Source: an uncultured Bacteroidales bacterium
GTDB taxonomy: Bacteria > Bacteroidota > Bacteroidia > Bacteroidales > G3-4614
Assembly (NCBI GenBank): GCA_949297125.1
Contig: CASFRS010000001.1
Span: 62,001 to 126,000 of the forward strand
DNA length: 64,000 bases
Direction of reading: 5' to 3'
Shown here: positions 4,524 through 35,545 of the stretch, piece by piece
Layout: each line of letters begins with the position of its first letter
How positions within the stretch are numbered: position 1 is the stretch's first letter
Made by a program: the position numbers and the translations under genes
The notes under the pieces: model-generated
Databases searched by the model: none
Told to the model about the DNA's origin: nothing
Seen by the model: the letters and a program-made list of their open reading frames with translations, nothing else

Positions 4524-5083
4524 ACGATAACGGAATAAAGGTGGGTTCGGAATACAAAAGGACCTTGTCTTATAAAAACATAATGGCAAGAGTTGTTTGG
4601 AATACTGCATACATCCTGTTATTCAGGCCATTCCCTACCGTTATATTCGGGAAATGGCGCAATTTCATACTAAGGGTATTCGGTGCAAAGGTCGGCAAAC
4701 ACACATCCATTCGTGCATCGGCTAAGATATGGGCTCCCTGGAACCTGGAAATAGGAGAAGACAGCTGTATAGATAACCGTGCCAATATCTACAATACCGG
4801 CAAAGTAAAAATAGGGAACAAAGTTGTCATATCGGCCGGAGCTTTTATATGCCCGGGGTCTCACGACATATCATCCCCTGCATTTCCGATGATACCTTCA
4901 ACCATAACCATAAACGACTGTGCATGGATAGCCACCGAGGCATTTATAGGGCCGAAGGTTACTATAGGGGAGTATGCCGTTGTAGGAGCGCGGGCCTGCG
5001 TATTCAAGGATGTGGAACCGTGGACGGTTGTAGGCGGCAATCCTGCCGTATTTTTGAAAAAACGGGTTATTATACGAAAATAG
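4520..5083 (+). CDS. Left-handed beta-helix (hexapeptide) O-acetyltransferase, WcaF-like
   Basis: 187-residue protein with hexapeptide-type periodicity from about residue 55 to 175, including 'IGEDSCIDNRANI', 'IGNKVVISAGAFICPGSHD' and 'IGEYAVVGARACVFKDV'. The His in 'PGSHD' is at the position of the catalytic His in WcaF/NodL-type acetyltransferases. The family moves acetyl from acetyl-CoA to a sugar hydroxyl in the cytoplasm. The position inside the glycosyltransferase operon, overlapping the previous gene as ATGA, points to acetylation of a glycan repeat unit. Confidence 0.85.
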   Translation: MNDNGIKVGSEYKRTLSYKNIMARVVWNTAYILLFRPFPTVIFGKWRNFILRVFGAKVGKHTSIRASAKIWAPWNLEIGEDSCIDNRANIYNTGKVKIGNKVVISAGAFICPGSHDISSPAFPMIPSTITINDCAWIATEAFIGPKVTIGEYAVVGARACVFKDVEPWTVVGGNPAVFLKKRVIIRK

Positions 5084-24137: not shown

Positions 24138-25583
24138 ATGAATATCTTAAAACAGTTGTTTCTGGCGTATGCCGGACACGAAGCATCGGACATACACCCT
24201 GTTGCCGGGGCGGGGTCGCCGCGCCGCTATTACAGGCTATCATCACCGTCGGTTACGCTTATCGGCGTTCTCGGCGAGTCGCCCGCTGAAAACCGCGCCT
24301 TTATTGCCCTGTCGGGACATTTGTCGGACAAAGGGATAAATGTACCCGAGGTAGTTGCCGCAAGCGATGACGGTATGGCATATCTGCAAACAGATTTGGG
24401 CGATGTGTCGCTTTACGACCGTCTGGCTTCATGCCGTGCAGCGGATATATACGACAGCGAGGCCCTCAGCCTGCTTCGCGAAACCATGAGACAGCTTGCC
24501 GCCATACAGATAAGAGGCGATAAGGGGCTCGACTACGGAAAGGTTTGCTACCCGGTAAGCCGTTTCGATGAACGCTCCGTCATGTTCGACCTCAACTATT
24601 TCAAATACTGTTTTCTCAAAGCATCGGGAGCGGAATTCGACGAGAACAGGCTGCAGGACGATTTTGAAACGATTTCAGAAGAGTTGTCGCTTGCAGGCCC
24701 GACAGGCTTCATGTACCGCGACTTTCAAAGCCGCAACGTAATGATTAAGGACGGCAAACCGTGGTTCATCGACTTTCAGGGCGGGCGTCGCGGACCGGTG
24801 CACTACGATGCGGCGTCATTCCTGTGGCAGGCACGTGCCCGCTACCCGGACGAAGTACGTGAAAGCCTGCTGGATGAATATGTCGCAGCTTTACGGGCCG
24901 AAGGGGTCGACGTAGACAGCACGGCGTTTCGCCGCGACCTTGAAAGGTTTGTCCTTTTCCGCACATTGCAGGTTTTGGGAACTTACGGGTTCCGCGGATA
25001 TTACGAACGCAAATCGCTGTTCCTGCAAAGCATCAACCTTGCCGTTGAGAACCTGCGGCAGCTGTTACGCGCCGGCGTTGCCGACGAATACCCGTATCTG
25101 AAAGATACGCTTGCGAAAATGACCGCGTTGCAGCGTTTCTCTCCCTCACCCACCCGCAACACGCTGCGTGTTACCGTATACAGTTTCTCATACCGCACCG
25201 GCATACCCGATGACGGAAGCGGAAACGGGGGCGGATTCGTATTTGACTGCCGCGCAATACACAACCCGGGCAGATATGCGCAATATGCCCCGCTGACAGG
25301 ACTGGACGGACCGGTAATTCGTTTTCTTGAGGAGAACGGCGAGATTCTGCCATTTCTCGAACATGCCTTCGCCTTGACCGATGCTGCCGTAGAGAAATAT
25401 ACCGGACGTGGATTTACGCATCTGCAGGTTGCATTCGGATGTACAGGAGGACGGCACCGCTCGGTTTATTCCGCGCAGAGGCTGGCCGTTCACCTGCATG
25501 AAAAATACCCTGCAATAGAAGTCTGCCTGATACATCGGGAACAGAATATTTCAACAACCTTTTCACCGCAAACAGCACCATGA
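24138..25583 (+). CDS. Sugar kinase (APH fold, AmgK-like) fused to a RapZ C-terminal domain
   Basis: 481 residues from ATG 24138. The frame is open from 24054, but a consensus promoter occupies that stretch. Residues 1-335 are an aminoglycoside-phosphotransferase-fold kinase with the catalytic loop 'YRDFQSRN' (about 193-200) and 'IDFQGGRRGPVHYD' (about 209-222), which closely resembles AmgK, the anomeric MurNAc/GlcNAc kinase. Residues 340-475 are a RapZ/YvcJ C-terminal domain ending with 'GCTGGRHRSV'. In E. coli that domain binds glucosamine-6-phosphate and small RNAs. The stop overlaps the next start by 4 bp. Inferred role: regulated 1-phosphorylation of a cell-wall amino sugar. Confidence 0.82.
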   Translation: MNILKQLFLAYAGHEASDIHPVAGAGSPRRYYRLSSPSVTLIGVLGESPAENRAFIALSGHLSDKGINVPEVVAASDDGMAYLQTDLGDVSLYDRLASCRAADIYDSEALSLLRETMRQLAAIQIRGDKGLDYGKVCYPVSRFDERSVMFDLNYFKYCFLKASGAEFDENRLQDDFETISEELSLAGPTGFMYRDFQSRNVMIKDGKPWFIDFQGGRRGPVHYDAASFLWQARARYPDEVRESLLDEYVAALRAEGVDVDSTAFRRDLERFVLFRTLQVLGTYGFRGYYERKSLFLQSINLAVENLRQLLRAGVADEYPYLKDTLAKMTALQRFSPSPTRNTLRVTVYSFSYRTGIPDDGSGNGGGFVFDCRAIHNPGRYAQYAPLTGLDGPVIRFLEENGEILPFLEHAFALTDAAVEKYTGRGFTHLQVAFGCTGGRHRSVYSAQRLAVHLHEKYPAIEVCLIHREQNISTTFSPQTAP

Positions 25584-26317
25584 GGGCAATGATTTTCGCT
25601 GCCGGCCTGGGGTCGCGCCTCAAGCCGCTGACCGACCGCATACCGAAAGCTCTTGTACCTGTCGGCGGCGTCCCCCTGCTGCACCGCCTGCTTATAAAAC
25701 TGCATGCCGCAGGATGCACCCACGCCGTAATTAATGTACACCACCATGCCGGACAAATAACCGACTTTATTGCCGCCCGCAACTACGGCATGCGTATAGA
25801 AATATCGGACGAAAGCGGAATGCTGCTCGATACCGGCGGAGGACTGCGCCGCGCAGCCGCCTTCTTTCCCGGCAACGAACCTGTACTGCTGCACAACGTC
25901 GATATTTTATCGAACCTTAAACTCGACACTTTTGCAGCATCCATGAAGCCGGATAGTCTGGCACAGGTTGCGGTAAGCGACCGGTCTTCAAGCCGGCAAC
26001 TCCTCTTCGATGAAGGAAACCGCCTTGCCGGGTGGCGCAATGTCCAGACAGGAGCGACGCGCCCTGCCGATATTGACGCCGCTACATTGGCTACGCTGCA
26101 CCCGCACGCTTTTGCAGGGATACACGTTGTATCGCCGCGCATTTTCGGACTTATGTCGGGATGGCCGGAAAAATTCTCCATTATGGACTTTTATCTGAAC
26201 GTCATGCAAAAGGAGAAGATAGTTGCATACCGGCAGAACGGTCTGGCGATACTCGACGTAGGCAAAACCGACACCCTTGCAGCGGCAGACGACTTTACAG
26301 CAAAATACGGGTTGTAA
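25580..26317 (+). CDS. Sugar-1-phosphate nucleotidyltransferase, MurU-like
   Basis: 245 residues. The N-terminal signature 'IFAAGLGSRLKPLTDRIPKALVPVGG' (residues 4-29) contains the GxGxRLxPLTxxxPK nucleotide-binding motif. 'LLHNVDILSNL' holds the metal-binding Asp and 'DVGKTDTLAAA' lies near the C-terminus. The length suits MurU, the MurNAc-1-phosphate uridylyltransferase, better than RmlA or GlmU. ATGA overlap with the kinase gene suggests a coupled two-step route, sugar to sugar-1-P to UDP-sugar, as in AmgK-MurU recycling known from Pseudomonas and Tannerella. The exact sugar is inferred. Confidence 0.82.
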   Translation: MRAMIFAAGLGSRLKPLTDRIPKALVPVGGVPLLHRLLIKLHAAGCTHAVINVHHHAGQITDFIAARNYGMRIEISDESGMLLDTGGGLRRAAAFFPGNEPVLLHNVDILSNLKLDTFAASMKPDSLAQVAVSDRSSSRQLLFDEGNRLAGWRNVQTGATRPADIDAATLATLHPHAFAGIHVVSPRIFGLMSGWPEKFSIMDFYLNVMQKEKIVAYRQNGLAILDVGKTDTLAAADDFTAKYGL

Positions 26318-26562: not shown

Positions 26563-26619
26563 TATCTTTGCCGTAGAACGGCGAAAATAAGCTGCACTCG
26601 GCATAGCCGAACCTTACGG

Positions 26620-26650
26620 TTTGTCTCTGCCCTCGTTTGCATTATCTTTG
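26620..26650 (+). promoter_or_regulatory. Repeat-borne promoter 1
   Basis: TTTG at 26620-26623, 19-bp spacer, TATCTTTG at 26643-26650, at the junction of repeat copies 1 and 2. Full consensus for the Bacteroidales housekeeping sigma factor. It points to the alkylation-repair genes. Confidence 0.65.
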
Positions 26651-26699
26651 CCGTAGAACGGCGAAAATAAGCTGCACTCGGCATAGCCGAACCTTACGG

Positions 26700-26730
26700 T
26701 TTGTCTCTGCCCTCGTTTGCATTATCTTTG
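26700..26730 (+). promoter_or_regulatory. Repeat-borne promoter 2
   Basis: TTTG at 26700-26703, 19-bp spacer, TATCTTTG at 26723-26730, at the junction of copies 2 and 3. Identical to promoter 1 and 80 bp closer to the glycosylase gene, leaving a leader of about 140 nt. Confidence 0.65.
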
Positions 26731-26873
26731 CCGCAGAACGGCGAAAACAAGCTGCACTCGGCATGGCCGGACTGCAAAATAATTGTATCTTGCGGGATAC
26801 ATCCGTTACCGGCAAAACAGTACGGAGTTGCCGCCATAATGCGACGGATAGTTTTAATTGTTTCTATAAACGC

Positions 26874-27539
26874 ATGTATAACGATACTTTTTTTCGATAC
26901 GGAGAAACGGAACTCTCTTATTTAAAACATGCCGACAGGCGACTGGCCGACGTAATAGAACGGATAGGGCCTGTGAAAAGAAGAGTTATTCCCGACTTGT
27001 TTGCAGCCTTGGTGCATTCCGTTGTAGGGCAGCAGATTTCCACAAAGGCCCACGAAAAGATATGGCAAAGGATGCAGGACGGTTTAGGCGATATAACGCC
27101 GGAAAAGATAACCGGACTTTCCCTTCCCGAACTGCAAAGCTTCGGCATATCGTCAAGGAAGGCGACGTATATCCGCTCCGCTGCACAGAAAATACAGGAC
27201 GGCACATTCGATATAAAGGCGCTTAACGGCATGAGCGACGCCGAAGTTTGCGGCTTGCTTACCGAACTGGACGGAATAGGCGTATGGAGTGCCGAGATGC
27301 TGATGTTGTTCTCCATGCAGCGCAGTGATATCTTAAGTTTCGGCGACCTGGCTATCCAACGGGGATTGCGCATGATTTACCACCACCGCAAAATAACACG
27401 CAAACTGTTTGAGAAATACCGCAGGCGCTTTTCGCCATACAACAGCGTGGCAAGCCTTTATATTTGGGCCGTAGCAGGAGGCGCAATTGAGGGTATGAAA
27501 GATTATGCACCCAAAAACAAAAAGAAATGCAAAACATGA
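26874..27539 (+). CDS. DNA-3-methyladenine glycosylase II family protein (AlkA-like, HhH-GPD)
   Basis: 221 residues from ATG 26874. The frame is open from 26637, but that part is repeat and promoter. The helix-hairpin-helix segment is 'LLTELDGIGVWSAEMLMLFSM', followed by the catalytic Asp in 'LSFGDLAIQRGLRM' as in AlkA/MAG enzymes; 'ALVHSVVGQQIS' is the N-terminal GQQ(I/V)S motif of the family. It excises 3-methyladenine and other alkylated bases. It overlaps the start of the methyltransferase gene by 13 bp, forming a two-gene alkylation-repair operon. Confidence 0.92.
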   Translation: MYNDTFFRYGETELSYLKHADRRLADVIERIGPVKRRVIPDLFAALVHSVVGQQISTKAHEKIWQRMQDGLGDITPEKITGLSLPELQSFGISSRKATYIRSAAQKIQDGTFDIKALNGMSDAEVCGLLTELDGIGVWSAEMLMLFSMQRSDILSFGDLAIQRGLRMIYHHRKITRKLFEKYRRRFSPYNSVASLYIWAVAGGAIEGMKDYAPKNKKKCKT

Positions 27540-28057
27540 AAGCAATCTGTATACAGCAGTATCACTCCCCGTGCGGCGACCTGCTCATCGGGTCGTATGA
27601 AAATGCGCTTTGCCTTTGCAACTGGGTAAAGGAACTGCATGCCGGGGCCGTTGAAAAAAGACTGACAAGAATCCTAAAGAGCAGTTATAGGGAGATGCCG
27701 TCGGATATTACCCTGGCAACTGCCGCGCAGCTTGATGAATACTTCGCAAGACAACGCACCTCGTTCGATATTCCGCTGCTTTTTGCCGGGACTGACTTTC
27801 AGAAGAGAGTATGGAATACCCTTCTGGAGATACCTTACGGACAGACCGTATCGTATGGAGAACTGGCGAAACGGATTGGAAAGCCTGCCGCCGTAAGAGC
27901 CGTAGCTAACGCTATCGGTGCAAATGCCATATCCGTTATAGTTCCATGCCACAGGGTAACAGGGAGCGACCATACCCTTACCGGATACGGCGGAGGCATA
28001 GCGGCCAAAAGGATGCTGCTGGCTCTTGAGTCGTTATCCGCCACGGACATTTACTGA
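27527..28057 (+). CDS. ogt: Methylated-DNA-protein cysteine methyltransferase
   Basis: 176 residues from ATG 27527, or 173 from ATG 27536. The C-terminal half has 'FQKRVWNTLLEIPYGQTVSYGELA' and the active-site 'IVPCHRVTG', where Cys accepts the methyl group from O6-methylguanine, then 'YGGGIAAKRMLLALE'. The N-terminal domain is the short Ogt type, without an AraC/Ada module. It overlaps the AlkA-like glycosylase gene, so the two are co-transcribed from the repeat-borne promoters. Confidence 0.95.
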   Translation: MQNMKAICIQQYHSPCGDLLIGSYENALCLCNWVKELHAGAVEKRLTRILKSSYREMPSDITLATAAQLDEYFARQRTSFDIPLLFAGTDFQKRVWNTLLEIPYGQTVSYGELAKRIGKPAAVRAVANAIGANAISVIVPCHRVTGSDHTLTGYGGGIAAKRMLLALESLSATDIY

Positions 28058-33674: not shown

Positions 33675-35144
33675 TTAATAAACCGATATTCTGCTTATAA
33701 GCGGGCAGACTTTACTGTCTGTTATCGCTACTCTTACCTTCGATGTAGACACAGGCGAAGTGAGTTCGACTATACGTTTGTGTCCTATTGTGGTAGTCTC
33801 TTCGGTTGTAGCGGCTTTCTGCCACGAACCTCCCGACCACGTATATATTTCAAAGCCTTTTACTCTTTGCCCCAGACGTATGTATTCTCCCAGACGGATA
33901 TACTGTACGGTTTGGTTGGAGCCCAGGTCGATGTCGATTGTACCGCTTGTCTGCCCGTCTTCAAGAGCCCAGTATGTTTCGTCATTGCCGTCGGTAACGT
34001 TCGATGCCGCGAATTTACCGCTTACCGAACTTGAACGTTCGGCCGATGCCGTTGCGCTCTTTCCCGATGCAAGGTCGGTACCGAATGCTTCATCCAGCAA
34101 GGTTTTGAACTCTCTCATCCTGCTTACGGTTGCATCGGACAAGCGTCCGTCCCGCCCCGGGGGGAAGTTCAGTATAAGGTTGGAATTGCGTCCTACCGAT
34201 GTCATGTATATCTTGAAAAGCTGCTGCGCGGTTTTCAACTGCGAATCGGAAGACGTGCTTGCAAACCAGCCCGGCCCGTTCTTGGCGTCGCATTCCGACG
34301 GCAGCCAGCGCCAGCCGTCCTCATCGCCGTATTCGTTCCCGTTTGCGCCGTTGTTGTAGATGCTCCACGAAGTCTCGCCGGCCCATCCTTCTTCATTTCC
34401 TACCCAGTGGCAGTCCTGGTCCCAGCCCCATATTGCGCAGTTGGGCTGCAAGTCCCTGATCATCTTGAAGGTGGTATTGAAATCGTAATATGTATTGGCG
34501 TCTATGCTGCGGGTCTCGCGGGCTCCGCCGTAGTATCCGTCGCCGCCGTTGGCGCCGTCGAACCACATCTCGAATATTTCACCGTAATTGGTACAGATTT
34601 CGCGTATCTGGTTGCGGAAAGTCTCAACGTATCCGGCACGGCCATACTCGGCGTTGTTCCTGTCCCACGGGGAGATATAGGCTCCGAACTTGAGACCTTG
34701 TCTCTTGCACTCTGCCGACAAAAGGGCGGGTATATCGACATGCCCGTGTGCTGTAGTGTTGTTCTTTGTAGAATGTTCAGTAGTTTCGGTAAACCATGTA
34801 CAGAACCCGTCATGGTGCTTGCAGGTAATTATTATACCCTTGCACCCGATATTCTTCAATTCGGTTACCCACTGCTCAACATCCAACTCCGCAGTAGGGT
34901 TGAACGTGTTTATCGACTCGTCGCCGTACCCCCACTCCTTGTTGGTAAACGTATTTATCCCGAAATGGATAAACGCATAGAACTCCATGTTCTGCCATGC
35001 CACCTGCACCTCACTCGGAACAGGGAATACCGGTTGCGGTATGTTTTCAGGCGATGACATATCGCACAACTGCGAACTTTGTGCTTTTACCCCCATGACT
35101 GTCATCATGAAAGCCGCACATACTAAAAAAATTCTCCGTTTCAT
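33675..35144 (-). CDS. Alpha-L-fucosidase (GH29) with C-terminal discoidin/CBM32-like domain
   Basis: 489 residues with a signal peptide ('MKRRIFLVCAAF...VKAQ'). The GH29 domain covers about 40-360: 'FIHFGINTFTNKEWG', 'IITCKHHDGFCTW' and 'MWFDGANGG', with Asp196 as the expected nucleophile. The C-terminal ~130 residues ('SSVSGKFAASNVTDGNDETYWA', 'TIDIDLGSNQTVQYIRLGEY') form an F5/8-type carbohydrate-binding domain. It should release fucose from host or plant glycans in the periplasm or outside. It is the upstream gene of a pair with the GEVED protein. A promoter-bearing repeat faces it from 35458-35488, about 310 bp upstream. Confidence 0.92.
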   Translation of the reverse strand: MKRRIFLVCAAFMMTVMGVKAQSSQLCDMSSPENIPQPVFPVPSEVQVAWQNMEFYAFIHFGINTFTNKEWGYGDESINTFNPTAELDVEQWVTELKNIGCKGIIITCKHHDGFCTWFTETTEHSTKNNTTAHGHVDIPALLSAECKRQGLKFGAYISPWDRNNAEYGRAGYVETFRNQIREICTNYGEIFEMWFDGANGGDGYYGGARETRSIDANTYYDFNTTFKMIRDLQPNCAIWGWDQDCHWVGNEEGWAGETSWSIYNNGANGNEYGDEDGWRWLPSECDAKNGPGWFASTSSDSQLKTAQQLFKIYMTSVGRNSNLILNFPPGRDGRLSDATVSRMREFKTLLDEAFGTDLASGKSATASAERSSSVSGKFAASNVTDGNDETYWALEDGQTSGTIDIDLGSNQTVQYIRLGEYIRLGQRVKGFEIYTWSGGSWQKAATTEETTTIGHKRIVELTSPVSTSKVRVAITDSKVCPLISRISVY

Positions 35145-35457: not shown

Positions 35458-35488
35458 CAAAGATAATGCAAACGAGAGCAGAGACAAA
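35458..35488 (-). promoter_or_regulatory. Repeat-borne promoter facing the fucosidase gene
   Basis: On the minus strand TTTG (35485-35488), 19-bp spacer, TATCTTTG (35458-35465): full consensus. A second, poorer copy (TTTG 35564-35567, 18 bp, TATCTTTG 35538-35545) lies behind it. Confidence 0.6.
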
Positions 35489-35545
35489 CCGCAAGGTTCG
35501 GCTATGCCGGGTGCAACTTATTTTCGCCGTTCTTCGGCAAAGATA
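35458..35545 (-). repeat. Inverted single copy of the 80-bp promoter-bearing repeat
   Basis: Read on the minus strand, this is the unit found in tandem at 26563-26770, with about five substitutions in 80 bp and the TATCTTTGCCG element at both ends. The two internal hairpins are kept. Confidence 0.9.

Follow-up and report, generated by a model that had tools for sequence, protein, structure and literature searches.

A dispersed hairpin element of Bacteroidales that apparently spreads through promoters without silencing genes

Correia elements are small, mobile MITEs that carry outward promoters, and in these respects they resemble the element described here. To our knowledge, they require neither a pre-existing -7 box nor site-specific arms, and their sequence differs. 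The nearest described promoter-bearing tandem MITE is BrickBuilt of Porphyromonas gingivalis, which shows promoter activity in E. coli reporters and is considered a putative mobile promoter (PMC4596501). Like our element, BrickBuilt is found in Bacteroidales, is non-coding and intergenic, and has tandem repeats within a dispersed element (PMC4596501). It has features of its own: 23-nt repeats, a leader and a tail, a description from one species and bidirectional promoters. Its target duplications vary in length and sequence (PMC4596501), and it is not known to insert at a -7 box. Our element has a period of 73-86 bp and another organisation, the two being set apart by their descriptions.

The nearest hairpins are the REP/BIME sequences associated with RAYT (GTAG and CGTC families; PMC3733652), which are likewise short, dispersed, clustered and present in many genomes. 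However, the GTAG/CGTC foot and the Y1 transposase are absent here, and our element lies upstream of genes, in a fixed orientation and at the -7 box. Finally, the Bacteroides sigma-ABfr promoter has the consensus TTTG / TAnnTTTG (PMC7366714), which is shared by the terminal box and the element-borne TTG, but here the promoter is divided between the host box and the element.

We analysed a 64-kb stretch of DNA (the window) and propose, with rather good confidence, that its main tandem repeat belongs to a dispersed MITE/REP-like hairpin element of Bacteroidales that inserts at the -7 box of promoters, duplicates the box and brings its own TTG, the gene keeping a complete predicted promoter.

The array and its relatives

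In the whole window, the array spans positions 26563-26770, where an 80-bp unit is repeated 2.6 times. The first two copies do not differ from each other, and the third is cut short at 48 bp. TRF reports the array at 26563-26769 (period 80, 2.6 copies, 97% match) with the clear top score among the window arrays. Both TRF and the sequence thus confirm the original observation of an 80-bp repeat in 2.6 copies, the first two identical. The features are as follows:

25580..26317, + strand: upstream co-oriented gene, nucleotidyltransferase (Pfam PF00483)
26563..26642, + strand: unit 1 (80 bp), with box TATCTTTG at 26563-26570, P1 hairpin, core hairpin and TTTG at 26620-26623; it has close relatives elsewhere in the genome
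26620..26650, + strand: junction promoter candidate 1, TTTG-N19-TATCTTTG, from sequence, spacing count and the consensus of PMC7366714
26643..26722, + strand: unit 2 (80 bp), same sequence as unit 1, with box at 26643-26650 and TTTG at 26700-26703
26700..26730, + strand: junction promoter candidate 2, the one closer to the gene, TTTG-N19-TATCTTTG, from sequence and spacing count
26723..26770, + strand: partial unit 3 (about 48 bp), with terminal box TATCTTTG at 26723-26730, P1 hairpin and part of the core
26874..27539, + strand: downstream gene 1, HhH-GPD base-excision glycosylase, AlkA-like (Pfam PF00730)
27527..28057, + strand: downstream gene 2, 6-O-methylguanine DNA methyltransferase, Ogt-like (Pfam PF01035)
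35466..35545, - strand: second copy in the window, a single 80-bp unit with boxes at 35545-35538 and 35465-35458; the gene downstream of it (33675-35144) is also on the minus strand

The TTTG motifs at 26620 and 26700 each lie 19 nt ahead of a TATCTTTG box (26643 and 26723), and the predicted TTTG-N19-TATCTTTG arrangement is indeed present at both junctions of the array. No TTG is seen by eye 17-22 nt upstream of the first box (26563). Since this box lacks a -33 partner at the right distance, the locus has three boxes but two complete TTTG/TAnnTTTG pairs. The last box of the array lies about 150 bp upstream of the first ATG. The PF00730 and PF01035 matches of the next two genes bear out the "alkylation-repair operon" that had been placed downstream. 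A mechanical open reading frame with a TTG start (26637-27539, + strand) crosses the array into the glycosylase gene, and annotation pipelines could wrongly lengthen the protein into the repeat.

When the 208-bp array was searched by BLAST against its own 2.14-Mb genome (G000), it had 47 matches spread over about 40 sites, far above chance, which answers the original proposal of a genome-wide search for the unit. A profile built over the loci brought this to at least 50 arrays and about 96 units, which fall by length into subfamilies of 73-75, 80-81 and 82-86 bp. As in a MITE, the units are short, non-coding, intergenic and multi-copy. The element is also dispersed beyond this genome, in many gut bacteria of the order. 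Indeed, a degenerate core pattern was found in more than 100 stretches, and nearly all of those with informative titles come from Bacteroidales, including Prevotella, Xylanibacter, Parabacteroides, Duncaniella, Alistipes, Barnesiella and Paludibacteraceae. Cultured carriers among them are Parabacteroides gordonii, Xylanibacter ruminicola and Duncaniella muris. With a covariance model, at least 15 of 99 sampled Bacteroidales genomes were positive, some with at least 27 copies. Among the open-access papers searched, the core 13-14-mers retrieved only one unrelated paper. The element appears undescribed so far across Bacteroidales, a novelty that we regard as provisional. Twelve IMG/VR viral contigs (L168-L179) also match the core pattern, and these could be host prophage regions or contamination.

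Position relative to genes and sites of insertion

In G000, the downstream gene is on the same strand as the array at 39/40 sites, then at 46/47 in an enlarged set in which no array lies between convergent genes; the genes are codon-usage ORF calls, whose start codons may shift but whose strands hardly do. Box-bearing arrays of three other families are likewise co-oriented with the downstream gene (17/18, 17/17 and 10/10, or 44/45). The link to promoters suggested for the array is therefore strongly supported by position, and a placement of the copies unrelated to genes is excluded. Targeting of the -7 box is not a trait of the whole family, since copies with arms other than TAnnTTTG show no orientation bias. 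These other copies (L055-L167) have the same core, with arms such as ATTGTC/GACAAT, and lie away from promoters. In G007, the 3' box of one copy (L304) is succeeded first by a sequence closely resembling the P1 region and next by an apparent tRNA (TAGCTCAGTTGGTAGAGC), which places the insertion at or just before the tRNA gene.

The recA promoter provides a clean empty site at single-base resolution, and it is the only one to do so. G007 is empty and reads ...CCCAAT TATCTTTGCAATAGAAAA CGAGAG..., and G002 and G006 have the G007 sequence plus an insertion (85 bp, measured in G002) with an exact 18-bp duplication, TATCTTTGCAATAGAAAA, that begins at TATCTTTG. The comparison of filled and empty sister sites at recA thus reveals a target-site duplication, as in a MITE. 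In G005, a P1-only remnant (box, loop and inverted box, the core being gone; L321) lies beside the same recA start; it could be either a deletion footprint or an insertion intermediate.

At other loci the comparison was made with G003. The ancestral upstream flank leads straight into the array's first box at nagB, etfB, nfo, tsaB, BI-1 and dnaX, and the downstream flank resumes from the last box at panB and yicC, at flank identities of 67-89% between species that are about 70-75% identical at one aligned locus. Flanks that join the first or the last box, together with the recA pair, therefore indicate that the -7 box is the point of entry and that the inserted element has a box on either side. 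Truncation has removed the first or the last box from some arrays. In relatives, guaA has only a distant second type and gives no empty site, and the flanks of thrA and pepP were not alignable in this comparison. The AlkA-like gene (26874-27539) has a match in none of the seven sister genomes searched, so the window's own array offers no empty site. Lastly, the orthologous promoters of rsmI, dGTPase and ybaK have arrays in two species, with units of different type and number.

We propose the following course of events. The element would enter an existing promoter precisely at its -7 box, oriented with transcription. The box would remain at both ends, giving a target-site duplication that is 18 bp long at recA and at least 8 bp elsewhere, and the native -33 region would stay attached to the first box. 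An arm of the element's hairpin would then place a TTG or TTTG 19-20 nt upstream of the last box. With a complete predicted promoter after insertion, copies could accumulate in promoters, and such tolerance might explain their distribution.

The unit might instead be a transcription-factor site and the arrays protein-binding operators that mark one regulon. The upstream location and the two direct CTGCNCTCG motifs of each unit would fit. However, the exact duplication of the box and the empty sites are signs of insertion, and the variable arms, which covary (see below), are unlike fixed operator sequences. In addition, the downstream products, recognised by eye, are of mixed housekeeping functions with no obvious common pathway, and on these grounds a single regulon was rejected. 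We thus hold the operator explanation to be very improbable.

Hairpin structure and possible routes of movement

Each unit reads as a box T (TATCTTTG), the P1 loop, T' (inverted T), a bulged hairpin core (GGCTGCACTCGGCATA...CTGCNCTCGNTTGCAC) and T again. The "two small hairpins" first described in each unit are better seen as one P1 hairpin and one larger bulged hairpin. Aligned copies from 43 sites share one hairpin with fixed bulges. Indeed, 91% of the hairpin cells pair, as against 28-47% for slid control structures, and double-sided changes number 193 versus 65 in shuffles, with none of 500 shuffles reaching 193. The core columns belonged to the search pattern, in which the arms were left free, and the invariance of the core therefore carries little weight.

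The arms also covary. Of 118 sites, 70 have an outermost arm of exactly 6 Watson-Crick pairs and none has one of 7 or more; 73 sites have at least 5 pairs, versus 9.4 for shuffled partners. The sequence of this arm differs between sites, the junctions being N6 + GGCTGC / TTGCAC + N6'. In promoter copies, the -7 box serves as the 3' arm and is complementary to the 5' arm, with an imperfect match in the 80-bp units of G000 (AAAATA versus TATCTT). The P1 hairpin links the upstream box to the complement arm, and its inner arms match site by site (79% versus 47% when shuffled). G-T pairs make up 12% of the non-Watson-Crick cells, against 19% expected. As they are not enriched, pairing is probably kept at the level of DNA.

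This result also bears on the possibility that the hairpins are cis-regulatory RNAs of a regulon, 5' leader elements or thermosensors, spread by selection. Covariation is strong, transcripts from the first box would include the hairpins, and two species have arrays at the rsmI, dGTPase and ybaK promoters, all of which would suit such RNAs. However, structures kept at the RNA level would be expected to be enriched in G-U pairs, the hairpins lie upstream of the terminal promoter, some copies are located outside promoters, and the downstream genes have no obvious common pathway. Moreover, Rfam matched no family in the window stretch, and at seven related loci it returned only tRNA, SRP and sub-threshold chance families. 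An RNA role is thus unlikely in our opinion, though somewhat less so than operator arrays.

A short bulged hairpin that is dispersed, intergenic, clustered and non-coding also recalls a REP element moved in trans by a RAYT (Y1 HUH) transposase, and HUH enzymes act on single-stranded DNA hairpins. However, PF01797 is missing in four of the six genomes searched (G000, G028, G071 and G090), of which G028, G071 and G090 are copy-rich, and no GTAG or CGTC foot was seen. Y1 elements are also not known to produce target duplications. In G007, which has a RAYT, the repeats around that gene are unrelated to our element. Altogether, mobilisation of this kind seems to us highly unlikely. This RAYT-type Y1 transposase (L054, contig C1 of G007, near 4541-4882) has REP-like repeats of its own on its flanks, GTCTGAAAGACAATGTTGAGCAAAGCG... 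and CCGTCTGCAAAGACGGG. The bulged hairpin had also raised the idea of an integron attC site, which was dropped since no core sites were seen by eye. The 6-bp inverted outer arms are present but vary between sites, and the search for a parent element covered Y1 alone.

An arm that mirrors its target could mean that the target is recognised by base pairing, or that the element moves by fold-back template switching. We tentatively put forward, as a possibility that we do not favour strongly, that the element represents a new class of hairpin element with no obvious transposase, targeting the -7 box and preserving promoters across the order. T' may pair with the melted promoter strand, or template switching may fold back at TAnnTTTG, in either case with the box duplicated and a -33 of its own brought in. 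If insertion at the -7 box is true, it raises the puzzle of how a hairpin with arms fitted to every target is mobilised.

Promoter parts, box decay and array growth

A TTG is found 19-20 nt ahead of the last box for 99 of 107 element-preceded boxes in G000, G028, G090 and G071 (45/46, 17/22, 27/29 and 10/10 by genome). With the native -33 at the first box and the element's TTG before the last, insertion would therefore split the promoter and then re-complete it, and judging from these motifs promoter function should be preserved.

Along the arrays, the boxes have fared differently. TAnnTTTG is kept in 26/76 internal junction boxes (34%) versus 69/86 terminal ones (80%; Fisher p=4e-9). The young 80-bp subfamily keeps its internal boxes, and their decay is seen in the subfamilies of 73-75 and 82-86 bp as well as in the other families. 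The losses are mainly one-base deletions (TACTTTG, TAATTTG) or an altered last G (TATCTTTT, TATCTTTA). Several arrays of older subfamilies (L245-L247, L016, L021 and L034) have internal boxes minus one base (TACTTTG, TAATTTG, TTCTTTG) and a perfect terminal box. Selection against internal promoters is a possible cause of the loss.

These counts weigh on the proposal that tandem duplication adds promoters and that copy number sets gene expression. The junctions of the 80-bp subfamily hold full TTTG-N19-TATCTTTG pairs, and the rsmI, dGTPase and ybaK orthologues differ in unit type and number, as copy-number tuning would allow. However, a single unit is found at many sites, and since internal boxes decay outside the 80-bp subfamily and terminal ones are kept, tuning is possible at this locus but not as a general role. 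We consider it a rather unlikely explanation of the element. The idea that copy number sets promoter number is thus compatible with the present array and its subfamily and does not extend beyond them. The motif pairs that tandem duplication was thought to create are there, but duplication would come second to insertion of the hairpin element at a -7 box that was already present.

Following insertion at the -7 box, arrays might lengthen in two ways, by duplication between the direct-repeat boxes and by renewed insertion at the box. Unit similarity is 0.89 within arrays versus 0.76 between arrays, with five arrays at 0.97-1.0, and this likeness suggests duplication between direct repeats. In three mixed arrays (L015, L016 and L033), a single unit of the 80-bp type lies beside the gene and all units before it are of 75 bp, which suggests a fresh insertion at the terminal box.

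If our reading of insertion at the -7 box is true, dozens of promoters per genome would have been rebuilt by one small DNA element, among them those of recA, dnaX, nagB and panB in various species. It would be a concrete example of an insertion into a -7 box after which expression of the gene should continue. Promoters with no copy, one copy or several copies would also form a natural series for gauging the effect of the repeat on expression.

Several contigs of G000 end within arrays (C4/C18, C11/C27, C7 and C16), and the unit types suggest joins of the end of C4 to the start of C18 and of the end of C11 to the start of C27.
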